Of a stretch of 23,585 nt of DNA, positions 3,960-23,585 are shown in pieces (the stretch's first letter is position 1; the number at the start of each line of letters is the position of its first letter). The notes beneath the pieces are model-generated. The model saw only the letters and a program-made list of their open reading frames with translations. It was not told the DNA's origin and searched no databases. The position numbers and the translations under genes are program-made. Origin of the DNA: a virus; IMG/VR virus record IMGVR_UViG_3300043444_000888, positions 1-23,585 of that record; one strand, 5' to 3'.

Positions 3960-4811
3960 TTACAACCCCAATTCGCTGGACGGGATGAATGGCATGGAGG
4001 TGTTGCGACTGGTGTTGCCAAAGCGGTTCTGGCAGGTCTGCAGGGTCTTGTCGCAGCCCCAACTGGCGGCAAAGGTGTCCCCGACCTGCGGCGCGTGCGG
4101 CAGCGGGTAGGACAGCACAAAGCTCAGGCCAGTGCTGTTTTTGATGGTGCGGCGCTGGCCCGCATTGGCCCCGCTCGTGAACAGGATCGTGCCCTGCCAG
4201 TAGTTGCCCGAAGTGGCACTGGCCCAATAGACCAAGGAGGGTGTGGAGACGGCGTCCACCACCCCGTCCTGGGTGAAGCTGGACTTGGTCAGGCCACAGT
4301 TGGTGTCGTAGAGGGTGTGCACACAGGCGCTTTGCCACTGGCGCCGGGGCATCTGCAGGTCCAGCAGTGCCATGTTGGATTTGACCGAGATCTCGGCCTG
4401 CAGTCGGGTGATGGCGCGGATGGAGGAGACATAACCCGTGAACAGGGTCACCTCCCCCACCACCTCGCCCCATACTTCCATGTAGGCGCGGGCGCGCCGG
4501 ATCTTGGCGCCATCGAGCGATCCGCTGCGCACAGCGTCCAGGAACGACAGGCCATCGAGCAGATGGGTTCGCTGCGCGGCAATCACCACCGTCTGCTCGT
4601 CCGCGTCCATGCCCGCCGTGATGCGGTAGCGCAGGCCGGAGATCTGTACGCCATAAGGGTTGTAGGTGATGCCCTGCGAGGTCACCACCCGGTCCGCCGT
4701 GGTCAGATGAAGCACATTGGTGCTCAGTTGCGTGATCGTGAACAGGTCTGCGCATATGAACTGGCGTTTGCTTTGCAGCAACTCCTGCAGGGCGGGACTG
4801 GCAGTTTTCAT
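3960..4811 (-). CDS. DUF2163 tail protein (GTA gp13-like, lambda L-like)
   Basis: A protein of 283 aa matching the DUF2163 / phage BR0599 family of tail-tip proteins, which link the distal tail ring to the hub. The N-terminal part (residues 1-150) is beta-rich with ARAYMEVWGEV and VTLFTGYVSSI. The C-terminal part has the family signature: C163, C172 (YDTNCG), FTSGANAGQ, GDTF, then C253 and C260 before RFGN and the terminal PFIPSSE. Four such cysteines bind an iron-sulfur cluster in lambda gpL, and the same is reported for GTA tails, so a cluster is likely here. I use the ATG at 4811 (ATGA overlap). An in-frame start at 4850 would add 13 residues inside the previous gene. Confidence 0.9.
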   Translation of the reverse strand: MKTASPALQELLQSKRQFICADLFTITQLSTNVLHLTTADRVVTSQGITYNPYGVQISGLRYRITAGMDADEQTVVIAAQRTHLLDGLSFLDAVRSGSLDGAKIRRARAYMEVWGEVVGEVTLFTGYVSSIRAITRLQAEISVKSNMALLDLQMPRRQWQSACVHTLYDTNCGLTKSSFTQDGVVDAVSTPSLVYWASATSGNYWQGTILFTSGANAGQRRTIKNSTGLSFVLSYPLPHAPQVGDTFAASWGCDKTLQTCQNRFGNTSRNTSMPFIPSSELGL

Positions 4812-5755
4812 GGCTTGACGGACTGGATGGAGAGTTTCTGCAACTGCCACAGATCGAACATGAAGTTGTCGTAGTCCTGGCTGTCCTCGGCAAAACGCAC
4901 CCGGTAGTACCAGGTGAAATCGATCCAGACGCTGGTGCCCACCGCAGGCGGCGCCGCAAAGACGATCTGGTTGGGGCTCACGAACGTCCAGCCCGTGGTC
5001 TGGGGCTGGGCCAGCGTGGCGCCTGGCGCCTGAAACCGGATGGCCAGCGAACTGCTGTCCACATAGCCACAGGGCTCGGTGAAGCCGCCATAGGTCTTGC
5101 TCAATGTGAATTTGGTGGTGGCCCCGTCCCCCACCGCCAGCAGATGGTCCTGCATGAGGTTTTCTTCACTGGGGTCGCGGTACAGGAAGGTGTCAAAGCT
5201 CCCCGCGCGCGCCAGAAAGAAGCCCATGAGTTGCTGCAACTCGGTGTGGGCATCGGCGCGCAGGAACTCGTACTTCATCTCCCACTCCCAGATCGGGTAG
5301 GCGTAGTTGGAGATGCGCACCTCGCGTCCGGAGACGTGGCTGGCGATGGCGGTGTTGAATTTGGGTCGTTTTTTGACGTGCCAGGCCAGGCCGGGCAGCG
5401 TCGGCAAGAGGTGATCGCTCACGGGTTGCAACTCCTGGGTCAAGGGGGAAGGTTCATCCAGGCCGTACATGACCTGCAGCACCAATTGGCGGGCCAGCGC
5501 CGCAGACGGTGCCTCCAGCAGCCAAGCCGATGCCAGCAGTTGGACGGCGGCGTTGGCAGGCCGCGTCACCAGCGCCTCACTCACCACCTGCGCGCTCTGG
5601 TGAGCGCTGACGACGGCCGGTTCGTAGAGCACGCTCAGGCACGACTGGCCGCTGCGGATGCCGCCCGACTCCACCAACAGCAGCGCGCTCACGCGCGATG
5701 CGCAGGCATGGCCGGCACCGTCCAGCAGGGCTTGCAGGTTGACCTGGGAGTACAT
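4808..5755 (-). CDS. DUF2460 distal tail protein with extra N-terminal domain
   Basis: A protein of 315 aa. Residues about 112-315 match DUF2460 (GTA gp12-like distal tail protein), with LPTLPGLAW, the SGREVRISNYAYPIWEWE core, FFLARAGSFDTFLYRDPS and the final FDLWQL...SIQSVKP. Members of the family normally begin just before LPTLPGLAW, so the first 111 residues are additional. They are Ala/Leu/Val-rich and I do not recognise them. V112 is a GTG with AGGAG 9 nt before it, so a shorter DUF2460 protein could also be made. The ATG at 5755 has GAGG 6 nt upstream and lies 7 nt after the lectin-like gene. The last 4 nt overlap DUF2163. This looks like two ancestral genes joined in frame, or one gene with nested products. 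Confidence 0.85.
   Translation of the reverse strand: MYSQVNLQALLDGAGHACASRVSALLLVESGGIRSGQSCLSVLYEPAVVSAHQSAQVVSEALVTRPANAAVQLLASAWLLEAPSAALARQLVLQVMYGLDEPSPLTQELQPVSDHLLPTLPGLAWHVKKRPKFNTAIASHVSGREVRISNYAYPIWEWEMKYEFLRADAHTELQQLMGFFLARAGSFDTFLYRDPSEENLMQDHLLAVGDGATTKFTLSKTYGGFTEPCGYVDSSSLAIRFQAPGATLAQPQTTGWTFVSPNQIVFAAPPAVGTSVWIDFTWYYRVRFAEDSQDYDNFMFDLWQLQKLSIQSVKP
5420..5436 (-). promoter_or_regulatory. Candidate internal translation start for DUF2460 domain
   Basis: Inside the DUF2460 gene, AGGAG (5436-5432) stands 9 nt before an in-frame GTG (5422-5420). The codons that follow encode SDHLLPTLPGLAW, which is how stand-alone DUF2460 proteins usually begin. This makes a second initiation site plausible, giving a protein of about 204 aa besides the full-length one. 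Confidence 0.4.
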
Positions 5756-5762
5756 GCGGGCC

Positions 5763-7373
5763 TCAACTCATCGTCTTGTAGCCAATCTGCGCCGCATTGG
5801 CTTCGGCCACGGTCCAGGGACTGCCGGTATCGGGGTTGGTGGCCCAGACGGTGGATTTGTAGGAAAAAGTGGAGCCCAGGTTGTAGGTGGCCCCCACCGC
5901 CTCGGTGCTGCCGGTCTTGATCAGGTTGGCCACTGTGCGCGGGTTGGCATCGTCCTTGGCGTACATGCCCGTGACCTGCACCGCGTAGACGGAAGAATCG
6001 GTGGCCAGGTTGCCGTCCGTCGTGAACAGGTCCTTGAGCCCCACCCCACCGGTCATGTTGTAGGTCGTGGCCCCATCGCCTGAGGTCTCCTGCACCGCCC
6101 CGTGGTTGGGGGTCGGTGTGAAGGTCAGGTTGTAGAGCACGAAGTAGGACACCGAACTGAGGCTGGTGGCGCCGGTGTACGGAAATGTGGCCGGCACACT
6201 TGGATACGTACTGGCGCTGTAGCACCAGGCTGGCACCCCGCCCGAGATGGCCAAAGTGTCGTAACGGATGTCAAAGCTGGTGTTGGCAATGAAGCCGATG
6301 AAGTACTTCTTGCCCTTTTGCAAGGTGACACCGGCGGGGAACGTCAGTGTGATCAGCCCCGCTGTGAAGGCCCCGTATTCGTTGCCCAAGGCCAGCAAGG
6401 CCCCGGGCTGATTGGGGACGTTGGGGTCCTCGCCATAGATCACCGGACGGCACTTGATGTCGGCCAGGTTGTTGTTGCACATCACACCAAAAGAGTTGAT
6501 CGTGCAGTCGCGCTTGGCAGCGATGAAACCGTTGCCCATCGAAACATAACGGTTGTTCATCACGTACTTGTCCGTCTGCCAGCGTCCCAGATAGACACGG
6601 TTGGCCACCGCCGTCATGTAGTACGAGGAAGTGGAGGTCTGCGGGTTGGGATCGACCGCATAGGCCCCGGAAGATGTGAATTGGCTCACCACATCGGCTT
6701 TGGGCCACATGGTGAAGACCCGCTTTTCGCCAAGCAGGGTATTCATAGGGTAAGCACCGGGGCCGATGCTGGCATCACACACGTACAGGTCATCTACCGC
6801 AGCGGCCAGACCAGAAAACACGAGCACGTTCATTTGGGTCTGTGCGGTCAGGCTGGTGCTCAGGTTGAACACGCTGGCCACCACCTCATTGTTCACGCGC
6901 GCCACCAAGGCACCGTCATTGCTGCCCAGCTTCAGGCGGATTTCAAAGTACATCCAGGTGTTGAGGGTGAAGGCGCTGGGTACGCTGGCCGCCACGGTGG
7001 TGTAACTGCTGGTCGCAGCGTTGTAGAGCTGCAGCGTGATGGCCAGTGAAGCTGGATCAAAGACCACCCGGGCGATGATGTTGCTGCCGTTTCGCAGTGA
7101 GATCTGGCGGGTGTAAAGGGTGTTGTTGATGGAGTAAATCTTGAGGGCCATCCCGACAAAAACTTCGGAGAGGTTCGCGCCCAGACTCAGGGTGTTGAGG
7201 CTGTTGTACTGGCCCATGACCAACGCAGTTCCATTGAAACGGCCCTGAATGAACATCGGCAGGGAGCCTTCGGTATCTGTGAAACAACTCACATCAAGCA
7301 AGCTCCAGCCCGCCGTCGACATGTCGCTGGTGCCGGTGTAGTGGTCAAAGCCCTCGCACAGGATCAAGGCCAT
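5763..7373 (-). CDS. Lectin-like structural tail protein
   Basis: A protein of 536 aa. The first 210 residues or so look like a concanavalin/laminin-G type beta-sandwich: it opens with LILCEGFDHYTG and contains WMYFEIRLKLG and a conserved AAVDDLYVCD near residue 195, a pattern common in phage particle proteins. The middle (about 220-430) is beta-rich with many aromatic residues. The C-terminal part (about 470-536) carries TVANLIKTGSTEAVGATY and ends in PWTVAEANAAQIGYKTMS, a module shared by many phage tail proteins. It sits between the tape measure and the distal tail gene, 3 nt after the former, with GGGAGA upstream of the ATG. A role in carbohydrate binding at the tail tip is inferred; no catalytic motif is visible. 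Confidence 0.75.
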   Translation of the reverse strand: MALILCEGFDHYTGTSDMSTAGWSLLDVSCFTDTEGSLPMFIQGRFNGTALVMGQYNSLNTLSLGANLSEVFVGMALKIYSINNTLYTRQISLRNGSNIIARVVFDPASLAITLQLYNAATSSYTTVAASVPSAFTLNTWMYFEIRLKLGSNDGALVARVNNEVVASVFNLSTSLTAQTQMNVLVFSGLAAAVDDLYVCDASIGPGAYPMNTLLGEKRVFTMWPKADVVSQFTSSGAYAVDPNPQTSTSSYYMTAVANRVYLGRWQTDKYVMNNRYVSMGNGFIAAKRDCTINSFGVMCNNNLADIKCRPVIYGEDPNVPNQPGALLALGNEYGAFTAGLITLTFPAGVTLQKGKKYFIGFIANTSFDIRYDTLAISGGVPAWCYSASTYPSVPATFPYTGATSLSSVSYFVLYNLTFTPTPNHGAVQETSGDGATTYNMTGGVGLKDLFTTDGNLATDSSVYAVQVTGMYAKDDANPRTVANLIKTGSTEAVGATYNLGSTFSYKSTVWATNPDTGSPWTVAEANAAQIGYKTMS

Positions 7374-13217: not shown

Positions 13218-14729
13218 TCAAGCGTTGGCGATGTTGTTGATCACGCCCAGTGAGAACGGGGCATAGCACTGCAGCACCCCATCGGCATAGACGCCGTACT
13301 CGTACTTGCGCGAGACCAGCGGCCACTCCAGTTGGTAGTAGTCCTGGCGCATCAGCATCTGAGTGACGTTGCTCACGTTGGAGAGCGGGTACGGCAGTTT
13401 CTCGGTGTAGAAAAGGATGGTGCCGGCGGGCATGTTGGGGTGCACGCGCAGAGCCACCTTGGTACCGGTGACCTTGTTGAGGTACTCACCCACCACCAAA
13501 CCGGCAGAGATGGTGCCGGGATTTTCTGCACCGGTGGTCAGGCGCAACAGGGGCGCGCCGCCGTTGGCCACGATCTTCTTGGTGATGTTCACCAACTCCT
13601 GCGAGCTGACGTAGACCACCGTCGGCGAGAGGCGGAACTTGTTGTAGAAGTTCACGAAGGCCTGCTCGAAGTCGGCGATGCCGCCGGCGCCATCGGCCGT
13701 CAGGCCGCTGTTGCCGGTGGGCAGCGTGTTGATGTAGGCGTTGGAGCCAGGCTTGAAGGCTTGGTACAGCAGGCCATCGAAGTCCAGCGCGGAGGTGGAG
13801 TGGTCGGCCGCGCCCAGGCTGGAAGCCAGTTGCGCCGTCGGGGCAGGCAGCGCCGTGAGGGTGGCGCTGTTGACGCTGGTGACGGCCACCAGTTTCTCGG
13901 CGCCCGCCGTGCCCAGGTACCAGGCGTAGCCGACGGCGCCATTGGTGGCGGTGACGCTGGCGTTGATGGAGCCGGCCGAAGTGGCGCCCACCGTCACGCT
14001 CTGCGCGGCAGAAGGTTGGGCCGAACCGCCGCCAAAGCTGTCGGTGGAGCCGCCCGCGTTGGTGCGGGTGATCTGGCCGGGAACGCTGGCCGTGGCGGCC
14101 GAGAAGTACTGGCCGCTGGAGCCGTTGTTCACGCCCACGACATCGATGTAGGCCTGCAGGCCCAGCGCCACGGCGATCAGCGAGTAAGTGCCGCCAGCGA
14201 TGGTGCCACCGGTGGTCAGGCCCGTGGCGGCAGGCGTGGCCGTCTGGCCCATGGCCACACTGGTGTTGCCGCCCAGGATCAGGCGCTCTTCCTGCACCAT
14301 CAGCGCAGCCAGCGACTGCTCCACCGCCAGCGCTTTCACGTCCTCGAAGTTCTTGGAGGCGTAGTTCGCCTCGAAGTTCACGCTGTTTTCCAGACCGAAG
14401 CCACGGAAAGCGGCAAAGTTTTCGGTCAGTGCGTGGTTGATGACGCCGCCACGGTTGCCTTCGCTGACACCGGCGCGCACGTTTTGCACGTTGATGTTGG
14501 TGATGGCCTTCCAGTTGGCCTGGATCGCATAGCCCCCGGGCACGCGGGCAATGGAGTTGCGCAGCGGGGTGTCCACCGGGTAGAGCTTCTTGGAAGGCGC
14601 CTCCAGGTTGTAGGCCTGCACACCCGTGGTGGCGGTGCCTGGTTGGACAAAGGACTTGATGAGTGGGTCCGGGCTGGATTGAGCGACTTTCATCAATTCC
14701 AGGGTTTCGGCGGTCAGATTGGCACCCAT
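13218..14729 (-). CDS. Major capsid protein, HK97-fold type with Ig-like insertion
   Basis: A protein of 503 aa located after the protease gene, with the composition of an HK97-fold capsid protein. Residues 1-155 include the N-arm (LTAETLELMKVAQSSPDPLI), NVRAGVSEGNRGG and the spine helix VKALAVEQSLAALMVQEERL. Residues about 160-305 are Gly/Ser/Thr/Ala-rich and include SVTVGATSAG and GAVGYAWYLG, an Ig-like domain pattern, apparently inserted in the core. The core then resumes with ALDFDGLLYQAF, and the end (YYQLEWPLVSRKYEYGVYAD) is typical of the P-domain. I chose ATG 14729 because GAGGAG (14741-14736) lies 6 nt upstream; an ATG at 14792 would add 21 atypical residues. Confidence 0.92.
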   Translation of the reverse strand: MGANLTAETLELMKVAQSSPDPLIKSFVQPGTATTGVQAYNLEAPSKKLYPVDTPLRNSIARVPGGYAIQANWKAITNINVQNVRAGVSEGNRGGVINHALTENFAAFRGFGLENSVNFEANYASKNFEDVKALAVEQSLAALMVQEERLILGGNTSVAMGQTATPAATGLTTGGTIAGGTYSLIAVALGLQAYIDVVGVNNGSSGQYFSAATASVPGQITRTNAGGSTDSFGGGSAQPSAAQSVTVGATSAGSINASVTATNGAVGYAWYLGTAGAEKLVAVTSVNSATLTALPAPTAQLASSLGAADHSTSALDFDGLLYQAFKPGSNAYINTLPTGNSGLTADGAGGIADFEQAFVNFYNKFRLSPTVVYVSSQELVNITKKIVANGGAPLLRLTTGAENPGTISAGLVVGEYLNKVTGTKVALRVHPNMPAGTILFYTEKLPYPLSNVSNVTQMLMRQDYYQLEWPLVSRKYEYGVYADGVLQCYAPFSLGVINNIANA

Positions 14730-14735
14730 GTGGAT

Positions 14736-14741
14736 CTCCTC
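14736..14741 (-). promoter_or_regulatory. Strong ribosome binding site of the capsid gene
   Basis: GAGGAG stands 6 nt before the ATG at 14729, the best-placed ribosome site of the head genes. It decides the start over the upstream ATG at 14792 and agrees with the high expression expected of a capsid protein. The surrounding gap, 14730-14794, shows no hairpin element. Confidence 0.7.
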
Positions 14742-14794
14742 AGAAATAAGTGGGTCAGGTTGGTAACGGTTGATGAAATGGCATCCGCTCACCC

Positions 14795-16192
14795 TCAGCG
14801 GGCCGCGACACCGCCCTTGGCATGAAGCATCTTGATCAGCGAGGCCGCGTCATTGACCTGGCCGTGCGCGTCCAGCACCGGGCGCACATCGCCCTCGCCC
14901 TTGGCCAGGCCAGCCTCCTGGGCGGCCTGCGCGTCGTCCTGCAAGTCCATGCTTTTGCTGATGGCCATGGCGTTCAGGAGGGCCTTGCCCGGTGCGGGCA
15001 TTGCTTTGAGGCGCGTGAGTTCGCCCTGCAGGTGGGTGTTTTCTTGAGACAGTCGCTGCACATGGGCCTGCACCAGCGCGACCTTTTCCAGCGCCAGCGC
15101 GGTCTGCTCGGCCAACTTGACCACATCGGCGCCTTGGACATGGGTTGGATCGGCATCGGCTGGCGAGGCATCGGCTTTGGCCGTGCTGCACGCCACCCCC
15201 AACTCCACCAGGCTGTCGTGCATGGCCTGCATCTTTTGCATGCTCACGCCAGAAAAGCGGCGCCCGACCTTATGAACGGTGCCAGCGCCTTCGCCTTGGG
15301 TGGACACGCCATCGGCCAAGGCCACATCCTGGGTGCGTGCGGCGTTGTCCTCCTGGATCTCGCTGGCAATGAATTCCTTGAGCGCGCTCACCGCGGTTTG
15401 CAGGGCATTGACCTGCTTGGCGGCTTCACTGCCCTCCTCACCGTCCTCGCCCTGCGCCATCTCGTCGCGCTCCTTTTGCAGCACGTACTGGATGCTGCCC
15501 AGCGCCTGCAAGGCCTGGCCTGCGTCCCAGATTTCTTCCCCGGTGGATTTGCCCACCTGAGCGTCAGCGGATTGGGCCGCAGCGTCAGCGACCGGATCGA
15601 CGTTCACCTGCGCGTCAGTGGTGTCCGCCACCGCTGCGTCAGCAGTGACCGCGGTTTTGGCATCCGCTTTGGCCAGGGCCACCAGGCGCTGGGCGCTGAT
15701 GGCGCCCTGATCGAGCATCTGCGCCAATTGGGTGACGGCCGCTTCTTCATCGCTGGGTTTGGCATCGCTCGTGGCGGCTTCCGCTTTCCACAACGTGATC
15801 AGCGCTTCGGGGTTGGCGGGCCGGTCCACCAGGCTGATCTCGGTCAGGCGCAACGCGTTGATCACGTTGTCCACCTTCTCGATGGCTTTGCCGCCGATGG
15901 AAAAGCCTTTGTAGACCCCCGCCTTGACCTTGCTCCAGGCGTTGTCATCGACCACATGGGCGCTGATGAAGGTGCCCTTGTCGTCCATCTCCACCGACTT
16001 GGCCACGCCCACGGCGCTGGGCTGGTGCATCTCGCGGATGTTGGCAAAGCGCATGTAGTCCTGCAGCGCCGCAGCCATCGCCTGCTTGGTCACGATCTCG
16101 CCCTGCACATCCAGCGCCTCGGTGCTCGCATAGCCGTAGACCATGCGTTGCTCATCATCGACTTTGCAGATTTCGGCGTAGAAGTGTTTCAT
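14795..16192 (-). CDS. Prohead protease (XkdF-like, S78 type) fused to scaffold-like domain
   Basis: A protein of 465 aa. Residues 1-130 match XkdF-like S78 serine peptidases: YGYASTEALDVQGEIV, H56 in IREMH, VVDDNAWSKVKAGVYKGFS with S98, and E118 in LTEISLVDRPANP. H56 and S98 are the likely catalytic pair. The remaining 335 residues are Ala/Asp/Glu/Gln-rich, first low complexity (about 140-215), then helical, with a coiled coil around 355-400 (VKLAEQTALALEKVALVQAH), as expected of a scaffold that shapes the procapsid and is then digested. I chose ATG 16192, which has AAAGGA 8 nt upstream; the ATG at 16201 overlaps that site. The gene opens the head block after a gap of 132 nt. Confidence 0.87.
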   Translation of the reverse strand: MKHFYAEICKVDDEQRMVYGYASTEALDVQGEIVTKQAMAAALQDYMRFANIREMHQPSAVGVAKSVEMDDKGTFISAHVVDDNAWSKVKAGVYKGFSIGGKAIEKVDNVINALRLTEISLVDRPANPEALITLWKAEAATSDAKPSDEEAAVTQLAQMLDQGAISAQRLVALAKADAKTAVTADAAVADTTDAQVNVDPVADAAAQSADAQVGKSTGEEIWDAGQALQALGSIQYVLQKERDEMAQGEDGEEGSEAAKQVNALQTAVSALKEFIASEIQEDNAARTQDVALADGVSTQGEGAGTVHKVGRRFSGVSMQKMQAMHDSLVELGVACSTAKADASPADADPTHVQGADVVKLAEQTALALEKVALVQAHVQRLSQENTHLQGELTRLKAMPAPGKALLNAMAISKSMDLQDDAQAAQEAGLAKGEGDVRPVLDAHGQVNDAASLIKMLHAKGGVAAR

Positions 16193-16208
16193 GTGTCCCA
16201 TCCTTTAC

Positions 16209-16226
16209 GCTATCTTTTTGATAGCC
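16209..16226 (-). repeat. Intergenic hairpin element, copy 3 (before protease gene)
   Basis: The minus strand reads GGCTATCAAAAAGATAGC, with a perfect 6-bp inverted repeat (GCTATC/GATAGC) around 5 A. It ends 16 nt before the protease ATG, and the AAAGGA ribosome site follows it almost directly, so a folded stem would be right next to the translation start. Confidence 0.75.
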
Positions 16227-16240
16227 GTTTAGATGGGCGG

Positions 16241-16249
16241 ATGATAGCA
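16241..16249 (-). promoter_or_regulatory. Candidate extended -10 promoter for the head genes
   Basis: The minus strand has TGCTATCAT, an extended -10 box (TGn plus TATCAT, five of six matches). No good -35 box lies at the proper distance, which extended -10 promoters can tolerate. Transcription would start near 16234 and the leader would carry the hairpin at 16209-16226. Support is only sequence similarity. Confidence 0.3.
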
Positions 16250-16324
16250 GTCCTGAAGCTTTGTGGGTGATTTTTTTAATGCTTCCTGTTAGCACGCACA
16301 CTTTGCGCTATCAGATTGCGCGCC

Positions 16325-17284
16325 TTAGAACGCCGTGAGGATCACGATGCCATCACCGCCGCGCCCGCCTGCGGAACGGGTACCGCCGGTGAGCGTGCCC
16401 CCTCCGCCTCCGCCACCACAGCCCATGGCGCCGGCCCCACCGTTGCCGCCCGAGCCCCCTTGGCCTCCGCCGGAGGCGCCTCCGGTACCACCATAAAAAA
16501 AGAACAGGCCCGGCACCTTCAAACCGTTGGCCCCCTGTCCTCCGTTGGCGGAAGTGGAACCCCCGGCAACGCCCCCACTGTGCACCGGGTACAGGCCACC
16601 GGCACCGACCGTGTTGAAAGCTCCGCCAGGGTTGCCATTCGAAGCCGCGTTGCCCAGACCACCGCCGCCGGTGCCCCCCGTCAAGAAGATGCCTGAAGTG
16701 GGCAAGGACAGCGCCCCCCCTGCGCCGGTGGTTCCGCCAGCCACGCCCGCTTGGCCGGCCGCCGCCATGTTGCTGCTGGCCAGGCAGGGAGCGGCCATCC
16801 CGGCCAACATGGCGCTGCCCACGCCGGTGCTGCTGGCCAATGCACCGGCCGAACCCGCCGTGGAACCCGATCCTGCTCCGCCGCCGCTGCCCACGGTGCA
16901 CTTGACCAGAATATGGTGGGTTGCACTGATGTCGGGGACCGCAGCGATGTGGGTGTAGCCACCCAGGCCCCCCACGCCGGCCACACCACCAGCGCCTCCA
17001 TGGCCGACGGAAATGTACAAGCGCTCGGGCAGCATCCACGCAGGCACCCACATCACCGCTGCCTGACCTGAGGCGCCCCCCCCGCCACCGGCAGCAGCGC
17101 TGTTGGAGCCCACCGCCCCGGCCCCTCCGCCGCAGCCGCCGGAAACAGCCACGATGTGAACAAAGGAAATGCCACGTGGTCGCTCCCAGATTTGCCATTG
17201 GACATTGGTCGCATAGGCTGTGGGCGAGAACACCTGCACATCGGCCTTTTGTGAAGGCGGTAGGTGAAAAAAATCGTAAGCCAT
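16325..17284 (-). CDS. Glycine-rich adhesin-like structural protein
   Basis: A protein of 319 aa. The N-terminal 45 residues (WQIWERPRGISFVHIVAVSG) match the start of phage glycine-rich tail proteins. The rest is a series of Gly-rich runs separated by hydrophobic strands (WVPAWMLPERLYISVG, LPTSGIFLTGG), ending in GGRGGDGIVILTAF. This looks like a polyglycine-helix sandwich, as in T-even gp38-type adhesins, and like many glycine-rich phage proteins. Such domains bind surface receptors at a fibre tip. It is the last gene of the appendage cassette. Its ATG overlaps the previous stop (TGATG), with GGGAGG upstream. Binding to a receptor, and location on tail or head, are inferred. Confidence 0.8.
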   Translation of the reverse strand: MAYDFFHLPPSQKADVQVFSPTAYATNVQWQIWERPRGISFVHIVAVSGGCGGGAGAVGSNSAAAGGGGGASGQAAVMWVPAWMLPERLYISVGHGGAGGVAGVGGLGGYTHIAAVPDISATHHILVKCTVGSGGGAGSGSTAGSAGALASSTGVGSAMLAGMAAPCLASSNMAAAGQAGVAGGTTGAGGALSLPTSGIFLTGGTGGGGLGNAASNGNPGGAFNTVGAGGLYPVHSGGVAGGSTSANGGQGANGLKVPGLFFFYGGTGGASGGGQGGSGGNGGAGAMGCGGGGGGGTLTGGTRSAGGRGGDGIVILTAF

Positions 17285-18045
17285 CAGTAATGCCCTCCCA
17301 CCGCTGTCACGACCCAGCCGGCGGCCACGGTCGTGCCCAGCCCCACATAGACGTGCTGTCCCGGTGGCAAGGCCAGATTCATCGGGTACTCCACCTCGGG
17401 CGAAGACACCGAGGCACTGGCGGTGGTGGCCGGCAGGTTCGCCTCGCCGAACAGGATGTTGGTCAGCAGGTATGCGGTCGGGTCCGCATGCACAGGCGGC
17501 GTGCTACCCATTCCCGGTGTGGTGCTGTCCATCAGCACACTGGTGCCCGTGGTTTCGTAGAGCAGCACCTGACCGCCCGTCACCGGCCCGACAAAAAGCC
17601 GGTAACGCACGGCGCCGGCCACGCCATTCCACTCCCAGGTGATGGCACTACCCGCACTGGTCACATAGACCGCTGCGGATTCGCTGGACAGGGCACTGGC
17701 TCCTCCCCATTGATCCACCGCCTGGACCTTGGCGAAGCAATTGCCCACGGCCAGGCTGCCTGCACCGGCGCTCACCGTGCCGGTGGGCGTACCGCTGACC
17801 GCGGCCAGCGGACTGGCCAGATTGAGCGCGCCGGTGTTGAGGTAGACGCGCGCCACACTGGCCGCATTGGTCCCCAGGGCCTTGAAGCGCAGTTTTTGCA
17901 GGAAACTGCCGTTGCTGGGATCGGCCTGGAACACCAGTCCATTGAGCGGGCTTTGGCCGTTGTAGTCGGCCGCGGCAGTGGTCAGCGTGACCCCGCCCTG
18001 GACGGAGCCGACGCGGGTGAACATGGGGTTGGCATTGGCGCTCAT
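17284..18045 (-). CDS. FN3/Ig-like structural protein of the appendage cassette
   Basis: A protein of 253 aa with no family I can name. It is beta-rich with low charge. Residues about 80-175 look like a fibronectin III/Ig-like fold: SLAVGNCFAKVQAVDQWGGA, then ITWEWNGVAGAVRYRLFVGP. The C-terminus (PPGQHVYVGLGTTVAAGWVV) resembles ends of fibre-associated proteins. I chose ATG 18045, overlapping the preceding stop (ATGA); an earlier in-frame start at 18228 lies inside the upstream fibre gene and encodes Arg/His-rich junk. It is flanked by fibre and adhesin-like genes, so it is probably part of the same appendage, for example a linker or decoration. Confidence 0.65.
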   Translation of the reverse strand: MSANANPMFTRVGSVQGGVTLTTAAADYNGQSPLNGLVFQADPSNGSFLQKLRFKALGTNAASVARVYLNTGALNLASPLAAVSGTPTGTVSAGAGSLAVGNCFAKVQAVDQWGGASALSSESAAVYVTSAGSAITWEWNGVAGAVRYRLFVGPVTGGQVLLYETTGTSVLMDSTTPGMGSTPPVHADPTAYLLTNILFGEANLPATTASASVSSPEVEYPMNLALPPGQHVYVGLGTTVAAGWVVTAVGGHY

Positions 18046-19148
18046 GGCAGGTTGAATCCCAGTGAAGTGGCGATGGTGTTGCCCAGGCCCACACTGGCCG
18101 CCGCGCCTTGCGGCGCCACCTCCAGCACGTCCCAGCAGTTGTCGGCGCCATTGAAAGCACAGCGCACATAGAGGGTTTGACCAGGCACCGTGGTGCCGGG
18201 CAATGTGGCCCCGATCCCCCGAAAGCAACCTGCCCCCATGCTGGTCCAGGTGAGACTGCGGGCGCTGCCGTTGTCCTGGATGCGCAGCAGGTAGCTCTGA
18301 CCGTTTTGCGGTGCGTTGGGATCGGCCAGCAGGATCAGGTTGTTGGCCAGTGCGGTGATGTGGAACTGGTCATCGACGTTGGAGGTCGGCGTGAAGCTGG
18401 GGTTCGGACTGGCGGCGCTGCCCACGCGCGGCGTGGAGATGTCCACCCAGTACAGGCCGTTGAAGCCTTGCCAGCGTCCGGTGCTGGGCATGAAGCGGAA
18501 GGTGGCGTAGTCGCCCCCGGCCACCACCAGCAGAGCGCCTTGCGTGGCGTGCGCACGCGTGACGATGGCCAGCACCTGCGTCGCAGCGAAAGAATCGGTC
18601 AGGATGGCGTTAACCAGTTCACCGCTGGGGCTGATCCACAGGCGGTCGCGCAAAGCCCAGGCGCTGGTGTCCAAGCCCTGCAGTTCGCCCTGCACCACCA
18701 CCGTGCCACTGGCCCCAGCGGCGATATCTTCACTGAGCAAGCCCAGCACCGGCATGCGCGTGAGGTCGTTGGCATCCGCCGCCCCCACCTGATAGCTGTA
18801 GGGTGCCACCACCCCGCTTTGGTAGACCGGACTCCCCTTGGTGAGGGTGGCGGCACTGGCGTTGTTGACGGGCAGCACCAGCGCGGTGCTGGGCCCTGCG
18901 CCACCGCCCGCTGCGTTGGTCCAGGCACTGCCGTTCCAGGCAAGGGTCTGCCCCACCAGCAGCGAGGACAGCGACACATCGGCCAGGCCCGAGAGTTGGC
19001 CGGCGCCAATCTGCACCACCGCCGCACCGTCGTGCATGTAGATCTTGCGGTCGGTGGTGTTGACCGCCATTTCGTGGGCCACCAGTTGCGCCGTGGTCGG
19101 CACCTTGGCGGCCACGTTGGAGCGTTTGGGCAGCAGGGTGTTGCTCAT
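18042..19148 (-). CDS. Fibre protein B (tail-fibre-like)
   Basis: A protein of 368 aa. The N-terminus (LLPKRSNVAAKVPTTAQL, then HEMAVNTTDRKIYMHDG) is the attachment motif found in many phage fibres: a basic start, then 'E.A.N..D..iY...G'. Next is LADVSLSSLLVGQTLAWNG and SAWTNAAGG, another fibre motif. Residues about 100-210 (GSPVYQSG, VLGLLSEDIAAGASGTVV, RLWISPSGELVN) match a domain known from T4-like and cyanophage fibres. The end carries a beta-rich region with SYLLRIQDNGSARSLTW. It starts 9 nt after fibre A with GAGG upstream, and its stop overlaps the next gene. A trimeric fibre is probable; receptor and anchoring point are unknown. Confidence 0.78.
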   Translation of the reverse strand: MSNTLLPKRSNVAAKVPTTAQLVAHEMAVNTTDRKIYMHDGAAVVQIGAGQLSGLADVSLSSLLVGQTLAWNGSAWTNAAGGGAGPSTALVLPVNNASAATLTKGSPVYQSGVVAPYSYQVGAADANDLTRMPVLGLLSEDIAAGASGTVVVQGELQGLDTSAWALRDRLWISPSGELVNAILTDSFAATQVLAIVTRAHATQGALLVVAGGDYATFRFMPSTGRWQGFNGLYWVDISTPRVGSAASPNPSFTPTSNVDDQFHITALANNLILLADPNAPQNGQSYLLRIQDNGSARSLTWTSMGAGCFRGIGATLPGTTVPGQTLYVRCAFNGADNCWDVLEVAPQGAAASVGLGNTIATSLGFNLP

Positions 19149-19157
19149 GCCCGCCTC

Positions 19158-20687
19158 TTAGAACGTGCCGCCGTCGATGGCAGAGGCATCCGAGAGCAAG
19201 GTACCCGAGGTAGGCAGCGTGAGGTTGGTCGCCGCGGTGGCCACCAGCGTGATGCCGAATGCCCCGCTGGTGGTGAGTGCGCCCGCCAGGTTCACGTTGC
19301 CGCCCAGCGTGGTGGTGAAACTGCCGTTGTTCACGCCCGAGCCGCCATAGCTGGGTGAGATCACCGCGCCCTGCCAGGTGCCGGTGCCCACCGTGCCCAG
19401 CGTGGTGATGGAGGTTTGTCCGGCGTAGGTGCTGGCGATGTCCACGCTGTCGGCGTTCACCGTGATGCGGTTGGCCGTGCCCACCACGTCCAGCGTGCTG
19501 CCCGTCTTGGTGAGGCCCGCCCCCGCGGTGATCTGTCCCGCCCCGGAAAACTGCGCAAACGCCAGCGCCGTGCCACTGGCGCCGCCGATCACGATGGGGT
19601 TGTTGGTGGTGAGCACCCAGCCCGAATCGGCGTTGCTCGCACCCTCCTCCACGAACATGAAAGCGCCCGACGTGACCAGTGCATCGGCATCGAAGTCCGT
19701 GGCGCGGTCCCAAACCCCGTTGCTGCCGGTGCCCAGGGTGCTCACGCTCCAGACCCCGTTTTGCGCGGCGTTGTTCTGGTCCTTGAGCAGCAGGCGGTCG
19801 CCTGCGGCCAGGTTCACACCGTCCAGGGTGTTGGGGGCGGCCGTGAATTGTCCACGTGCACTGGTGCCACCGGTGGCGGCATAGGTCGCGCTGACGCTCG
19901 CGCTGCTGGCCAGGCGCACCGACTGCTTCACATCCAGACCCGAGCGGGCGGCGTCCACATACGCTTTGGTGGCCGCGTCGCCGTCGGCCGTGGGCGTGGC
20001 CAGGTTGGTGAGTTTTTGGCTGTTGAACGAGACCGCTGCGGTGGGCGCGGTCATCTGGTCCAGGCGGGAGGTGCGCACCTGGGTGTCAAAGTCACTGAGC
20101 TTGGCGGCCGTGAGCGTGGGGATGTCCCCGGCCACCAGCGCGCGAAAGGTCGGTGCGCCCGCACTGCCATTGGGCGCAGCGAACACCGTGTTGGCGCTCT
20201 GACTGGCCAGGCTGGCGCTCAAGGTGCCGCTGGCGGTGACGGGTGAACCGGACACCGTGAACAGGCTGGGCAGGGACAGCGCCACCGAAGTGACCGTGCC
20301 CACGCCCAGGCCGCTCAGGAAATTGGCCTTGGTGATGCGCTTGGTGCTGGTGCCGTCGTGCAGCGCCACGTAATCGGTGCTCGCCGCCACGGTGGCCGTG
20401 GCCAGGTTGCTCAGGTCCACGCTGAGTGCGCGGTTGGCCGACAGGTCACCGCCACCGGCCAGGCCCGAATTGGCCACCGTGGACAGGCTGCGTGCCACCC
20501 CGACAAAGGCACCTGGGCCACCAATCGGGATCACGCTGGTGGCGCTGCCCCCTGCCCCACCCGTGCCGAAGCCGTAGTAGAGCGTGTTGTCCTGCTCGTT
20601 GTAGGCCAACTCGGCGTTGGCCAGGCTTGCGGGCGCGCCCGCAGCGCCCCCTGAGGCGCGACGTTTGATGCGAAGGGTGTTGGCCAT
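19158..20687 (-). CDS. Fibre protein A (tail-fibre-like)
   Basis: A protein of 509 aa and the largest of the cassette. The N-terminus (RIKRRASGGAAGAPASLANA, then AYNEQDNTLYYGFG) is the same attachment motif type as in fibre B. Then come motifs widespread in fibres: GTVTSVALSLPSLFTVSGSP, FRALVAGDIPTLTAAKLSDF, KLTNLATPTADGDAATKAYV, NGVWSVSTLGTGSNGVWDRA and WVLTTNNPIVIGG, and FSGAGQITAGAGLTKTGSTL. The C-terminus (LLSDASAIDGGTF) ends in a D-G-G-x-F tail. It should be an elongated beta-structured trimer. AAAGGAGA upstream of the ATG is a strong ribosome site. Its position between portal and capsid genes is unusual for a tail fibre. Confidence 0.85.
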   Translation of the reverse strand: MANTLRIKRRASGGAAGAPASLANAELAYNEQDNTLYYGFGTGGAGGSATSVIPIGGPGAFVGVARSLSTVANSGLAGGGDLSANRALSVDLSNLATATVAASTDYVALHDGTSTKRITKANFLSGLGVGTVTSVALSLPSLFTVSGSPVTASGTLSASLASQSANTVFAAPNGSAGAPTFRALVAGDIPTLTAAKLSDFDTQVRTSRLDQMTAPTAAVSFNSQKLTNLATPTADGDAATKAYVDAARSGLDVKQSVRLASSASVSATYAATGGTSARGQFTAAPNTLDGVNLAAGDRLLLKDQNNAAQNGVWSVSTLGTGSNGVWDRATDFDADALVTSGAFMFVEEGASNADSGWVLTTNNPIVIGGASGTALAFAQFSGAGQITAGAGLTKTGSTLDVVGTANRITVNADSVDIASTYAGQTSITTLGTVGTGTWQGAVISPSYGGSGVNNGSFTTTLGGNVNLAGALTTSGAFGITLVATAATNLTLPTSGTLLSDASAIDGGTF

Positions 20688-20699
20688 TTCGCTCTCCTT

Positions 20700-20981
20700 T
20701 TAAAAATTGCCACCATCGGTGATGGTTTGTTGGGCGCTGTTGGTCCAGGTGCTGCTCTCGCTCAGCTGCAGCACATCGCCCGGTTGGGGGTTGCTGACCA
20801 CCACGGGCAGGCCGCCGATGGCCGTTCCGCCTGGCGGCCCCACCGGGCCGGGGATGCCTTGCACGCCCTGTGGACCAGAGGCCGACAACTCCAGACGGGT
20901 GACGGCCGGCGCCAGCGCGAGCGTGGGCCCACCGTCCGCGATCTCCACGGTGTGCTGCAAAGGGCTGACCACCACGTCCAT
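20700..20981 (-). CDS. Collagen-like mini fibre protein
   Basis: A protein of 93 aa. Residues 36-50 hold five or six Gly-X-Y triplets (GPQGVQGIPGPVGPPGG), a short collagen-like segment that can trimerise. The flanks have a beta pattern (SPLQHTVEIADGGP) and a C-terminal tail PGDVLQLSESSTWTNSAQ followed by TITDGGNF. The D-G-G-x-F ending is shared with fibre A, and the STWTN motif echoes SAWTN in fibre B. It lies 12 nt after the beta-sandwich gene, with a weak ribosome site. Function as an adaptor or minor fibre subunit is inferred from this likeness and from the neighbours. Confidence 0.7.
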   Translation of the reverse strand: MDVVVSPLQHTVEIADGGPTLALAPAVTRLELSASGPQGVQGIPGPVGPPGGTAIGGLPVVVSNPQPGDVLQLSESSTWTNSAQQTITDGGNF

Positions 20982-20993
20982 GGCCGCGCCCGT

Positions 20994-21335
20994 TCAGACC
21001 TGCCCGTCCACCAGCAACGCGCCTTCGAGCAAGCGCGTCACCTGGCCGCCCGGGCTGGTGAGGTCGAGTTGGTAGACGTACTGGCCAGGCGCCAGGCTGG
21101 CCGTGAGGCTGGCGGGCAAATCGATCATCACCACGCCCAAGGCGCCATCGATCACGATCTGGCCGTTGGCGGTGCTCGCCTGCAGCACTGGCGCTTCGCC
21201 CTTGCTCACGGCTGCACGCAGTTGCGCCGCGTAGCCCGTCAGATCGATCAGCACACCGGCCGCATCGCGGTAGGTAAGTGCCAGATTGAAGGAGGCGCCC
21301 TGCGCCAGCAGCAGCTTGTAGATCCCGGCACTCAC
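20994..21335 (-). CDS. Small beta-sandwich appendage protein (BppU-N-like)
   Basis: A protein of 113 aa with the pattern of a compact beta-sandwich common in phage fibre and baseplate proteins: LLLAQGASFNLALTYRDAAG, VLIDLTGYAAQLRA, then GVVMIDLPA and GQYVYQLDLTSPGGQVTRLL. A similar fold forms the N-terminal part of phage baseplate upper proteins. The start is a GTG at 21335 with AAGGAC upstream; no ATG is near. It is the first gene after the portal and the hairpin element, and leads the appendage cassette. An adaptor between particle and fibres is my inference. Confidence 0.7.
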   Translation of the reverse strand: MSAGIYKLLLAQGASFNLALTYRDAAGVLIDLTGYAAQLRAAVSKGEAPVLQASTANGQIVIDGALGVVMIDLPASLTASLAPGQYVYQLDLTSPGGQVTRLLEGALLVDGQV

Positions 21336-21380: not shown

Positions 21381-23585
21381 CTAAAACCCGGACGCGGTTT
21401 CATCGACCAAGTCCGTGAACAACACCGGTGCGATGTCGCAACGGCAATTGGGGTGCTCGGGCGGGAACTGCGCGCCGCTGGGAAACTCCTCGTCCATCGG
21501 CAGGGGCGGGCTTTCGCCGTTCAACTGGCAGTCTTCGCTGACGCGGTCGTCGTTGGCGGTGATCCAGCGCTTATAAACCTCCACCCCGTTCTGGTTGGCG
21601 GCCTGGTAAAGAGCGACGTTGCCCTGCACATCGGCCATGGCGGTCTCGGTGCGCGCGATCATGAGGGCGCGATCCGCACTGAAGGCACCGGACTCTTCGA
21701 TGGCCTGCGCAAGTTGCTGGGCGCTCCATCCCTCGTCAATGGCTTGCGTGACTTGGGTGCGCAGCATGTCCTGCGTGGCCTGCCCGATCTGCCAGTCGGC
21801 CCCGGCCACGTCCTGCAGTTGGCCGTCCACCCAGCGCTTGCCCACCATCTCGGCGGCGCGGGTGCGGGCGTACTCGCTGGCGCGTTCGTTGGCCAGGTCC
21901 AGCGCCTGCGGCAAGCTGTCCGTGATCTGCAGTTGCACCGCGGCCTGCACCGCACCGTCAATGGCCAACGCCGCCAACAGATCGGCCACCTCCGGCACCA
22001 TCACATCCCAGTCCAAGTCCAGGCTGGCCAGCACCGATTCCACGTCGTGGCGCGGCAAGTCCATCTTGGCGCGGACTTGTAAAGCGGTGGCCAATTGCCT
22101 GGCTGCACGCGGGGCCAGCACAGCAAAGCGCTTTTGCAACACCCGCTGCAACTGGTTGCGCACCTGGCGCACCTTCTGGCGGTTGCGCCCGACCGGGCTC
22201 AGGGTGCGCGGCGCCGCCTTGGACAGTTTGTCCGTGGCCTGCGCATCGTCCGGGTTTTTGTCGGGTGGTCGGGCATGGGAGGGGGCGGGCCCCTTCCCGG
22301 CCGAAGTTGCATCGGGCTCTTGCGTCTCGGCCAGCGCCTGCAGGCCCAACTCCTCGCGCACCTCGTTGACCTGCTTGACCCCAGTGTTGACGTAGATCTG
22401 GTTGATCTGCGCCTGTTGCAAGGGGTCCGGGTCCTTGCTGTCGACCCAGACCAGTTGCAAGTCCTTCCAGCCGAAATACTTCCAGACCACATAGTCCACC
22501 AGGCCTTTGACCCAGGCCATGATGGGCGCCAAGCCTTCTTCCTTGACCTGCTCGCCCAGGCTCTGCGCGGTGGCGCGGTTTTGTTGGGCGATCAGGGCGT
22601 TGGGACTGATGCCGAAGGCGTAGCAAATCACCCTTGCCAGCCACTCGTCGTACTGGTCCTTGAGCAGGCCATCCTTGGTGTTGACGGGGCTCACCCCGCT
22701 GGGCACGAACATGGTGCCACGGCGTGCCCCTGTGTTGCCCGCAAGCACACTGTCCCACCAGGTCTTGAACTGCATCAACTGGTCCGGCGACCATTCCGGC
22801 GGCACCTGCAATATCAGGTCGGGCGTGCTGCCTTCGCTGTAGTACTGCAGCTGCGAAAGTTGCCGGCGCAACGCGATGTTCACGGTCATCAGGATCTGCT
22901 CGACCGGGCTGTAGCCGTAGACGCGGTGGGTGCGTACGTTGCGCGGCTTGTAGATCAATTCGTCACGGGAATAGTCCACGGCCGGCAAGCCCTTGATCAC
23001 CTGCTGGTAGGCCACCTGGGGCGGCAGCGGCGTACGCCCACTGCCATCGATCACCCGCTTTACGGTGGCGCCATCGAGCGGCTCCAGCGCGTACAGACCG
23101 CCCCCCAGGTTCAGGCGTGGGTAGACCGTGGGCGCATCCAGCACCAGCAGGTCCTCCAGCAGCATGCGCAGCCACTCCTCCCAACTGTGCTCCTGATCGG
23201 GAAAGCGAAAAAACTCCTGCAGTTGCGCGCAGCGCTGGTCCGCCTCCTTTTGCGGATCCTGTGGCTTGAATTCAAAGGCCAGTTTGCACACCAGGTCTTT
23301 GCGCGTCTCGATCACCAGGCGCAAGAGGTCCAGGTTGTCGGCCAGCGCTCGCAACTGGGCAAAACTCACGGGCTCATAGGCGCGCGGCTGGATCTGGGTG
23401 TTGTAGCCGGCCGGGAAATCAAAGCGCCGGGCCAGTGCCGCCTCTTGCGCCGCCGGAGCGACCGGCTGCTGCGGGCCAAACCATTCCGGAGCCTGCGGGT
23501 CACGGCCGCTGACCATGTAACGCACGCCACGAACCACCCGGTCGATCAGGCCGGGCTCCAAAGGGGTACGGGTTGCTTGGTTCAT
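21381..23585 (-). CDS. Portal protein with C-terminal MuF (minor head) domain
   Basis: A protein of 734 aa whose ATG is the last three bases of the window; the ribosome site is not visible. Residues 1-400 match phage portal proteins: LALRRQLSQL-type helix near 237-246, GLLKDQYDEWLARVICYAFG with ISPNALIAQQNRATAQSL (about 307-342), the usual region that contacts other subunits. A Pro/Asp/Ala-rich linker covers about 420-460. Residues 644-715 are a Mu gpF-like domain with ARTETA, then YKRWITANDDRVSEDCQLNG and PPEHPNCRCDI (conserved R-T-E, D-R-V, HPNCRC). Portal forms the dodecameric DNA channel, while MuF proteins are packaged minor head proteins. The fusion is in frame without internal stop. 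Such portal-MuF joins are known in other phages. Confidence 0.93.
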   Translation of the reverse strand: MNQATRTPLEPGLIDRVVRGVRYMVSGRDPQAPEWFGPQQPVAPAAQEAALARRFDFPAGYNTQIQPRAYEPVSFAQLRALADNLDLLRLVIETRKDLVCKLAFEFKPQDPQKEADQRCAQLQEFFRFPDQEHSWEEWLRMLLEDLLVLDAPTVYPRLNLGGGLYALEPLDGATVKRVIDGSGRTPLPPQVAYQQVIKGLPAVDYSRDELIYKPRNVRTHRVYGYSPVEQILMTVNIALRRQLSQLQYYSEGSTPDLILQVPPEWSPDQLMQFKTWWDSVLAGNTGARRGTMFVPSGVSPVNTKDGLLKDQYDEWLARVICYAFGISPNALIAQQNRATAQSLGEQVKEEGLAPIMAWVKGLVDYVVWKYFGWKDLQLVWVDSKDPDPLQQAQINQIYVNTGVKQVNEVREELGLQALAETQEPDATSAGKGPAPSHARPPDKNPDDAQATDKLSKAAPRTLSPVGRNRQKVRQVRNQLQRVLQKRFAVLAPRAARQLATALQVRAKMDLPRHDVESVLASLDLDWDVMVPEVADLLAALAIDGAVQAAVQLQITDSLPQALDLANERASEYARTRAAEMVGKRWVDGQLQDVAGADWQIGQATQDMLRTQVTQAIDEGWSAQQLAQAIEESGAFSADRALMIARTETAMADVQGNVALYQAANQNGVEVYKRWITANDDRVSEDCQLNGESPPLPMDEEFPSGAQFPPEHPNCRCDIAPVLFTDLVDETASGF

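Follow-up and report, generated by a model that had tools for sequence, protein, structure and literature searches.

The window analysed here is the whole 23,585-nucleotide stretch of the virus record IMGVR_UViG_3300043444_000888 (IMG/VR), and the subject of the study is a cassette of six intact open reading frames (ORFs), F6 to F1, on the minus strand at positions 16325–21335. All structural genes of the window are on this strand, in the order portal-MuF fusion, F6–F1, S78 protease, capsid, neck and tail genes, tape measure, tail-tip genes ending in a J-like protein, small ORFs and endolysin, so that the cassette has the portal-MuF fusion on one side and the protease/capsid pair on the other. 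A fibre/adhesin set of six genes at this place, as claimed in an earlier note on this DNA, was confirmed, and the sister contig IMGVR_UViG_3300022748_000512 contains all six genes in identical order. Since the sister contig shows the same arrangement, the order is not an accident of assembly, and chance or an assembly artefact as its source was ruled out. The cassette is a real, functional and mobile module, predicted to encode a receptor fibre; it is unusually placed, and it represents a variant of known fibre systems that comes with a new predicted assembly rule.

The rule concerns the ends of three of the proteins. F5 (93 amino acids (aa), 20700–20981) has a short beta-strand-like N-terminus, a collagen-like GPQGVQGIPGPVGPPG run and the C-terminal sequence TDGGNF, and is, judging from its sequence and the alignment of its homologues, a predicted short collagen tether; its single-sequence scan was flooded by collagen matches, with two weak hits. 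F4 (509 aa, 19158–20687) has an Mtd_N-like head (residues 1–46), a central YVD/repeat domain and the C-terminal sequence IDGGTF, while F3 (368 aa, 18042–19148) has an Mtd_N-like head, a DUF2190/cement-like middle (below cut-off) and a C-terminal domain matching phrog_3030, and carries no tag. The heads of F3 and F4 are related to each other according to our own hidden Markov model (HMM; E-value 0.003–0.013). Mtd_N (PF18454) reaches 14.0 bits at the F3 N-terminus, below the Pfam gathering score of 26.3 bits, and 68.4 bits, above the cut-off, in the head of the cyanophage-type relative L223. The bodies of F5 and F4 are unlike each other, yet their ends are alike; in F5 the tag (ITDGGNF and the stop codon) occupies positions 20700–20723. 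Ends of this type were found in 10 of the 7344 distinct ORFs of the first locus set, all of them cassette genes, and later in 19 of 15400. In the first set, every cassette protein with an Mtd_N-like head is preceded by a tagged protein (one of the tags being DCGTF), and the last headed protein is untagged.

In the simplest reading of these patterns, each tag would dock in the head of the protein that comes next. It is also conceivable, although we regard it as unlikely, that the tag has merely been inherited with the F5 and F4 gene families and has no role in docking. This would be favoured by the shortness of the tags, by the fact that all loci were found via related heads, and by the non-independence of the raw counts, the loci sharing ancestry and the tag pattern having been picked after the first set was seen. 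As a test independent of the tag, a further 160 loci were collected with the head sequence as the sole query. A tag is present in 162 of the 300 genes that have a head within the two genes following them, compared with 19 of 1092 others. When the proteins are grouped by body similarity, which removes part of the shared ancestry, 18 of 46 clusters before heads are tagged and 0 of 440 others; these 18 clusters have no mutual BLASTP similarity, which argues against inheritance with a gene family. The same holds for the headed proteins themselves, which are mostly tagged if another head follows (86 of 95) and seldom if none does (14 of 115). A further pattern, agreement of the final residue among the tags of one phage (F-F, Y-Y, A-A), was dropped because locus L272 has GGNY and then GGTF. 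No phage paper on such tag strings in connection with tail fibres, nor on the structure entries 9nx3, 26dk and 23sh, was found in the library of papers searched.

The protein encoded next to the portal gene, F6 (113 aa, 20994–21335), is predicted to be an Ig-like beta-sandwich with a fold like that of the fibre sockets of the baseplate-ring (BppU) and LtfC type. An alignment of seven distant members was too diverse for the scan, and three close members were used instead. Profile matches over the whole protein were obtained with phrog_1084 (residues 2–113, E 1.9e-19) and with phrog_3304, L-shaped tail fibre assembly (residues 5–111, E 6.9e-9), and a further profile match is 26dk_M, a structural protein of Pseudomonas phage KPP25 (E 6.6e-18). 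The match to LtfC of phage DT57C itself (8hqz_Q) is weak (E 0.08), and the Pfam LtfC-like family PF23926 scored 18.0 bits (E 0.0045), under its gathering score of 27 bits; BppU_N was not returned by the Pfam scan of F6. The AlphaFold2 (AF2) monomer model is a confident beta-sandwich (predicted local distance difference test score, pLDDT, 93), as is found in the BppU ring domain. In the PDB its fold is best matched by entry 8zdo_a of the Douge baseplate (TMq 0.74), whose 311 aa equal the length of Douge BppU, followed by the baseplate of 80alpha (6v8i, TMq 0.60–0.62) and then by connector proteins of phage Bas63, and a search of a viral structure library with the model returned a BppU_N protein. 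F6 shares its predicted fold with the BppU ring domain of Douge and 80alpha, a ring that is dodecameric in Douge, F6 having been modelled as a monomer; unlike BppU, it has no C-terminal carbohydrate-binding module, and its genome position differs. The joint of LtfC and LtfA in the T5-like phage DT57C, where the LtfC dodecamer accepts beta-strands of LtfA (PMC10713586), is similar in that a small beta-sandwich adaptor is encoded with its fibre and that a fibre N-terminus with short beta-strands comes next. It differs in that the cassette genes lie in the head module, that F5 is a separate short collagen protein and that the cassette fibre is apparently made of chained subunits.

F4 and F3 are fibre proteins. 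Residues 190–434 of F4 match the head decoration family phrog_2647 (E 1e-42), a region that also matches tail-fibre families, and F4 further matches the tail fibre family phrog_8745 (E 2.3e-24). Residues 261–399 match the capsid decoration protein of PDB entry 9nx3_A (E 6.4e-6), the sequence of which is that of C1 mycobacteriophages; the likeness is confined to the central domain of F4, and this domain occurs in tail fibres too. Together with the resemblance of the F3 middle to the cement protein family PF09956 (below cut-off), the match to phrog_2647 would fit a cassette of capsid cement or decoration proteins without receptor function. We consider this very improbable, given the heads of F3 and F4, the glycine-rich F1, the exchange of alleles in the outer genes (see below) and the many tail-fibre matches of the same domains. 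It is likewise at odds with the F3 homologue in L010, which ends in an S74 chaperone domain (26.8 bits); Peptidase_S74 (cut-off 22 bits) is absent from the window F3 in the Pfam scan. F2 (253 aa, 17284–18045) is a small protein for which Pfam scans gave no family above cut-off and no FN3 match, so that its earlier description as FN3-like was not borne out. It has one weak relative, located after J in L069 (BLASTP E 1e-5), and its scan of IMG/VR viral contigs returned the sister contig only. F1 (319 aa, 16325–17284) is a glycine-rich, tip-like protein, adhesin-like in character, which scores 29.7 bits against PF21722 (Gly_rich_2; gathering score 24.3) and has weak matches to phrog_356 and phrog_863 (tail). 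The PDB sequence search gave no match of F1 to a solved receptor-tip adhesin of the T-even gp38 type, and the PDB searches of F3 and F1 gave no useful match.

The earlier suggestion that the cassette decides surface binding is plausible, as the distal half, F3 to F1, has been exchanged between near-identical phages. Nucleotide identity between the window and the sister contig is about 95–98% over most of the window, 72–77% in F3-F2-F1 and 81–83% in the protease. The synonymous divergence (dS) is 0.66–1.29 in the block formed by F3-F2-F1 and the protease (0.81–1.29 in F3–F1 taken by themselves) and 0.03–0.35 elsewhere. The reading frames are preserved in the swapped genes, and the ratio of non-synonymous to synonymous divergence (dN/dS) of F3–F1 is 0.09–0.20, which indicates purifying selection; positive selection on F3–F1 was therefore rejected. 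The divergence is best read as an exchange of alleles by recombination with function kept. Since the J protein is 98% identical between the two phages, the varying surface parts are located in the cassette, and a swap of F3-F2-F1 with J unchanged is as expected for host-range parts. A second dip in identity (85.6%) lies at 5501–6000, in and near the tail gene at 4808–5755 (phrog_2913).

The portal protein on the upstream flank is fused to a MuF-like domain (21381–23585; PF04860, E 1.5e-22; PF04233, E 1e-19; phrog_2662, E 1.1e-108). Downstream are the S78 prohead protease (14795–16201; PF14550, E 8.8e-8; PF04586, E 2.5e-6) and the major capsid protein (13218–14792) of family phrog_13692 (E 7.6e-167), which matches nine named phage records, some of them annotated as major capsid or head protein. 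The tail-tip J-like protein (phrog_1101, E 2.5e-86) is encoded at 1222–3513; downstream of it the window record has small ORFs and the endolysin and no fibre gene, and no post-J fibre was found in the sequenced stretch of the sister contig either. The earlier note had taken coupled overlaps and flanking hairpins as marks of a unit. The overlaps are real for F3/F2 (ATGA) and F2/F1 (TGATG), the other genes being spaced by 12 base pairs (bp; F6/F5 and F5/F4) or 9 bp (F4/F3), but the hairpins do not delimit the cassette and were rejected as its borders: the only perfect palindrome, GCTATC-AAAAA-GATAGC, is present on the protease side, in the intergenic region of F1 and the protease (16209–16225, minus strand), with none on the portal side and a second copy beyond the tail-tip gene J (1197–1213). 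Each copy stands immediately upstream of a gene start, half sites also occur at 16243–16248 and 16307–16312, and the copy at 16209–16225 is preserved in the sister contig.

The capsid protein served as query in a scan that yielded 79 viral loci and 80 genome loci. Most capsid relatives carry no insert in the portal-protease junction. Among the 112 capsid-relative loci with both genes identified, the portal-protease gap is at most 300 bp in 58, 300–900 bp in 14 and larger in 40, a few of the gaps holding undetected MuF genes. Other inserts in the junction, named from reading of their sequences and not from profiles, are fibre or glycine-rich sets (L147, L184, L163), beta-helix-like proteins (L060, L082), an SGNH-like protein (L076) and sugar-modifying enzymes (L071, L072), among others. 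In L071 (4794–7187) and L072 (672–1469) the junction is occupied by sugar-aminotransferase/acetyltransferase and glycosyltransferase-like genes, in the Sphingomonas-type loci L030, L034 and L109 by a secreted serine-carboxypeptidase-like gene (501 aa), and several Rhodoblastus-type loci (L121, L123, L130, L132) have a histidinol-phosphate-aminotransferase-like gene on the opposite strand inside the gap. The F6-F5-F4-F3 cassette is restricted to one capsid clade (window, L002, L006 and L010; support 98), and it is also carried by L214, of which the fetched sequence does not include the capsid gene. With inserts that differ among relatives and F6-F5-F4-F3 limited to a single supported clade, the junction has been used as a slot repeatedly, and the unit entered it once in the window lineage. 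The comparison of gene order proposed in the earlier note gave half of what the note would count as a refutation: the close relatives L002, L006, L010 and L214 share the order of F6 to F3, which makes it a trait of a small clade. An HNH-endonuclease-like gene lies between the portal gene and F6 in L006 (2741–3079), L010 (4834–5172) and L214 (9633–9980), and is not found in the window; it could be a driver of cassette insertion.

Elsewhere the kit is conserved and its genome position is labile. Clusters of F6-F5-F4-F3 in Limnohabitans phage DC31, in Mosig and in cyanophage-type loci (L085, L090, L217, L222, L352) are similar in gene order, tags and heads, but belong to other phages and other genome positions, and the F1-F2 pair was not recognised there. 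DC31 has the kit after a phrog_113 portal, and in freshwater phages the F6-F5 pair stands behind a portal unrelated to that of the window, for example in L262 with the order portal (phrog_12), F6, collagen fibre, protease (phrog_80) and capsid (phrog_10). F6-F5-F4-F3 is found between capsid and head-tail adaptor in L296-type loci, and F5-F4-F3 between a host-range/tail protein and the endolysin in L271-type loci. In phiHAP-1 and Acidovorax AP1 the tail-fibre region is headed by F6-F5. Since the same unit is found at head, adaptor, tail/lysis and portal positions in different phages, the cassette is a mobile fibre module. In L205 (2732–4892) F6 and a collagen-like gene directly precede the presumed portal gene instead of following it, so that the pair is mobile inside the head module as well. 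The proposal that the fibre genes had moved is upheld by these positions after tail genes and by relatives without the cassette (L013, L014, L015), which keep their fibre genes after J. L022 has a pair resembling F6 and F5, together with fibres, after J; the likeness was seen by reading the sequences, and the F6-like protein had no match when scanned against PHROG.

On balance we lean towards one co-expressed receptor-recognition fibre module, placed by recombination in the portal-protease junction, probably from the usual post-J tail position. The F6 subunits would form a ring-like socket, as LtfC and the BppU ring domains do, and the N-terminal beta-strands of F5 would add to the F6 sheets, with the collagen run of F5 as a short stalk. 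The C-terminal tag of F5 would then dock in the Mtd_N-like head of F4 and the F4 tag in the F3 head, giving a chain F6-F5-F4-F3, while F2 and the glycine-rich F1 would form or complete a variable outer end in contact with the host surface. A siting of the socket on the tail is slightly favoured, and we hold it to be somewhat probable, because the best-located solved relatives of F6 belong to the baseplate or tail tip, the kit also occurs at canonical tail positions and the DT57C joint provides a precedent; a siting on the neck or head is given a lower but substantial chance.

Several observations weigh against this module as a tail fibre with a receptor-binding end. The swap block includes the protease, so that hitch-hiking is possible for any single gene and the swap alone is no proof of selection on host range, and the AF2 model of F1, made from two sequences, is not usable (pLDDT 29). 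A function at the head or neck is suggested by the F6-type genes, which several lineages have next to portal or capsid genes: 35 of the 80 F6 loci have a portal gene, belonging to one of two families, at most 1.5 kb upstream, and in a smaller, L202-type group F6 directly follows a capsid gene. The central domain of F4 is common to a solved capsid decoration protein. Finally, L010 has conventional post-J fibres (L094) as well, so that its cassette is an addition and not a replacement. The last three points lend some weight to a head or neck fibre, a less probable but serious alternative in which F6 would be a ring or clamp on the portal, neck or capsid, the cassette would project from the head like whiskers or head fibres, and the gene position would reflect head assembly. 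At least four settings have the cassette or its F6-F5 pair within the head module (the window clade with its phrog_2662 portal, the freshwater group, DC31 and the L296 group), and the Bas63 connector matches of F6 fit as well. A precedent is SPP1 gp12, a capsid protein of collagen-like type whose gene directly precedes that of the capsid (PMC6316719). It resembles F5 as a short collagen-like protein with a head-module gene, but is a lone capsid binder of 64 aa, whereas F5 carries a tag and is one of the six proteins of a fibre unit that includes a socket-type protein. Against a head or neck fibre, those among the closest solved matches whose location is clear (Douge, 80alpha, DT57C) come from the baseplate or tail tip, the parts of the kit also occupy canonical tail positions (L271, phiHAP-1, AP1), the F4 domain matches tail fibres too, and no capsid- or portal-binding motif was found.

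Beyond the window, we tentatively propose a general fibre assembly code, in which a C-terminal tag of the form [D/E/N]-G-G-x-[F/Y/A] may dock into the Mtd_N-like head of the next-encoded protein. Fibres would then be extendable chains on a BppU/LtfC-like socket, and the kit would be swapped among phages and positions, including head modules, where it might serve as a neck or head fibre. As the kit is found repeatedly in head modules, whether it is a head fibre or a tail fibre can be put directly to the test. If the rule of tag into head is true, sequence could suffice to read the order and partners of fibre proteins in many uncultured phages, and could make host-range modules recognisable even away from the tail genes.

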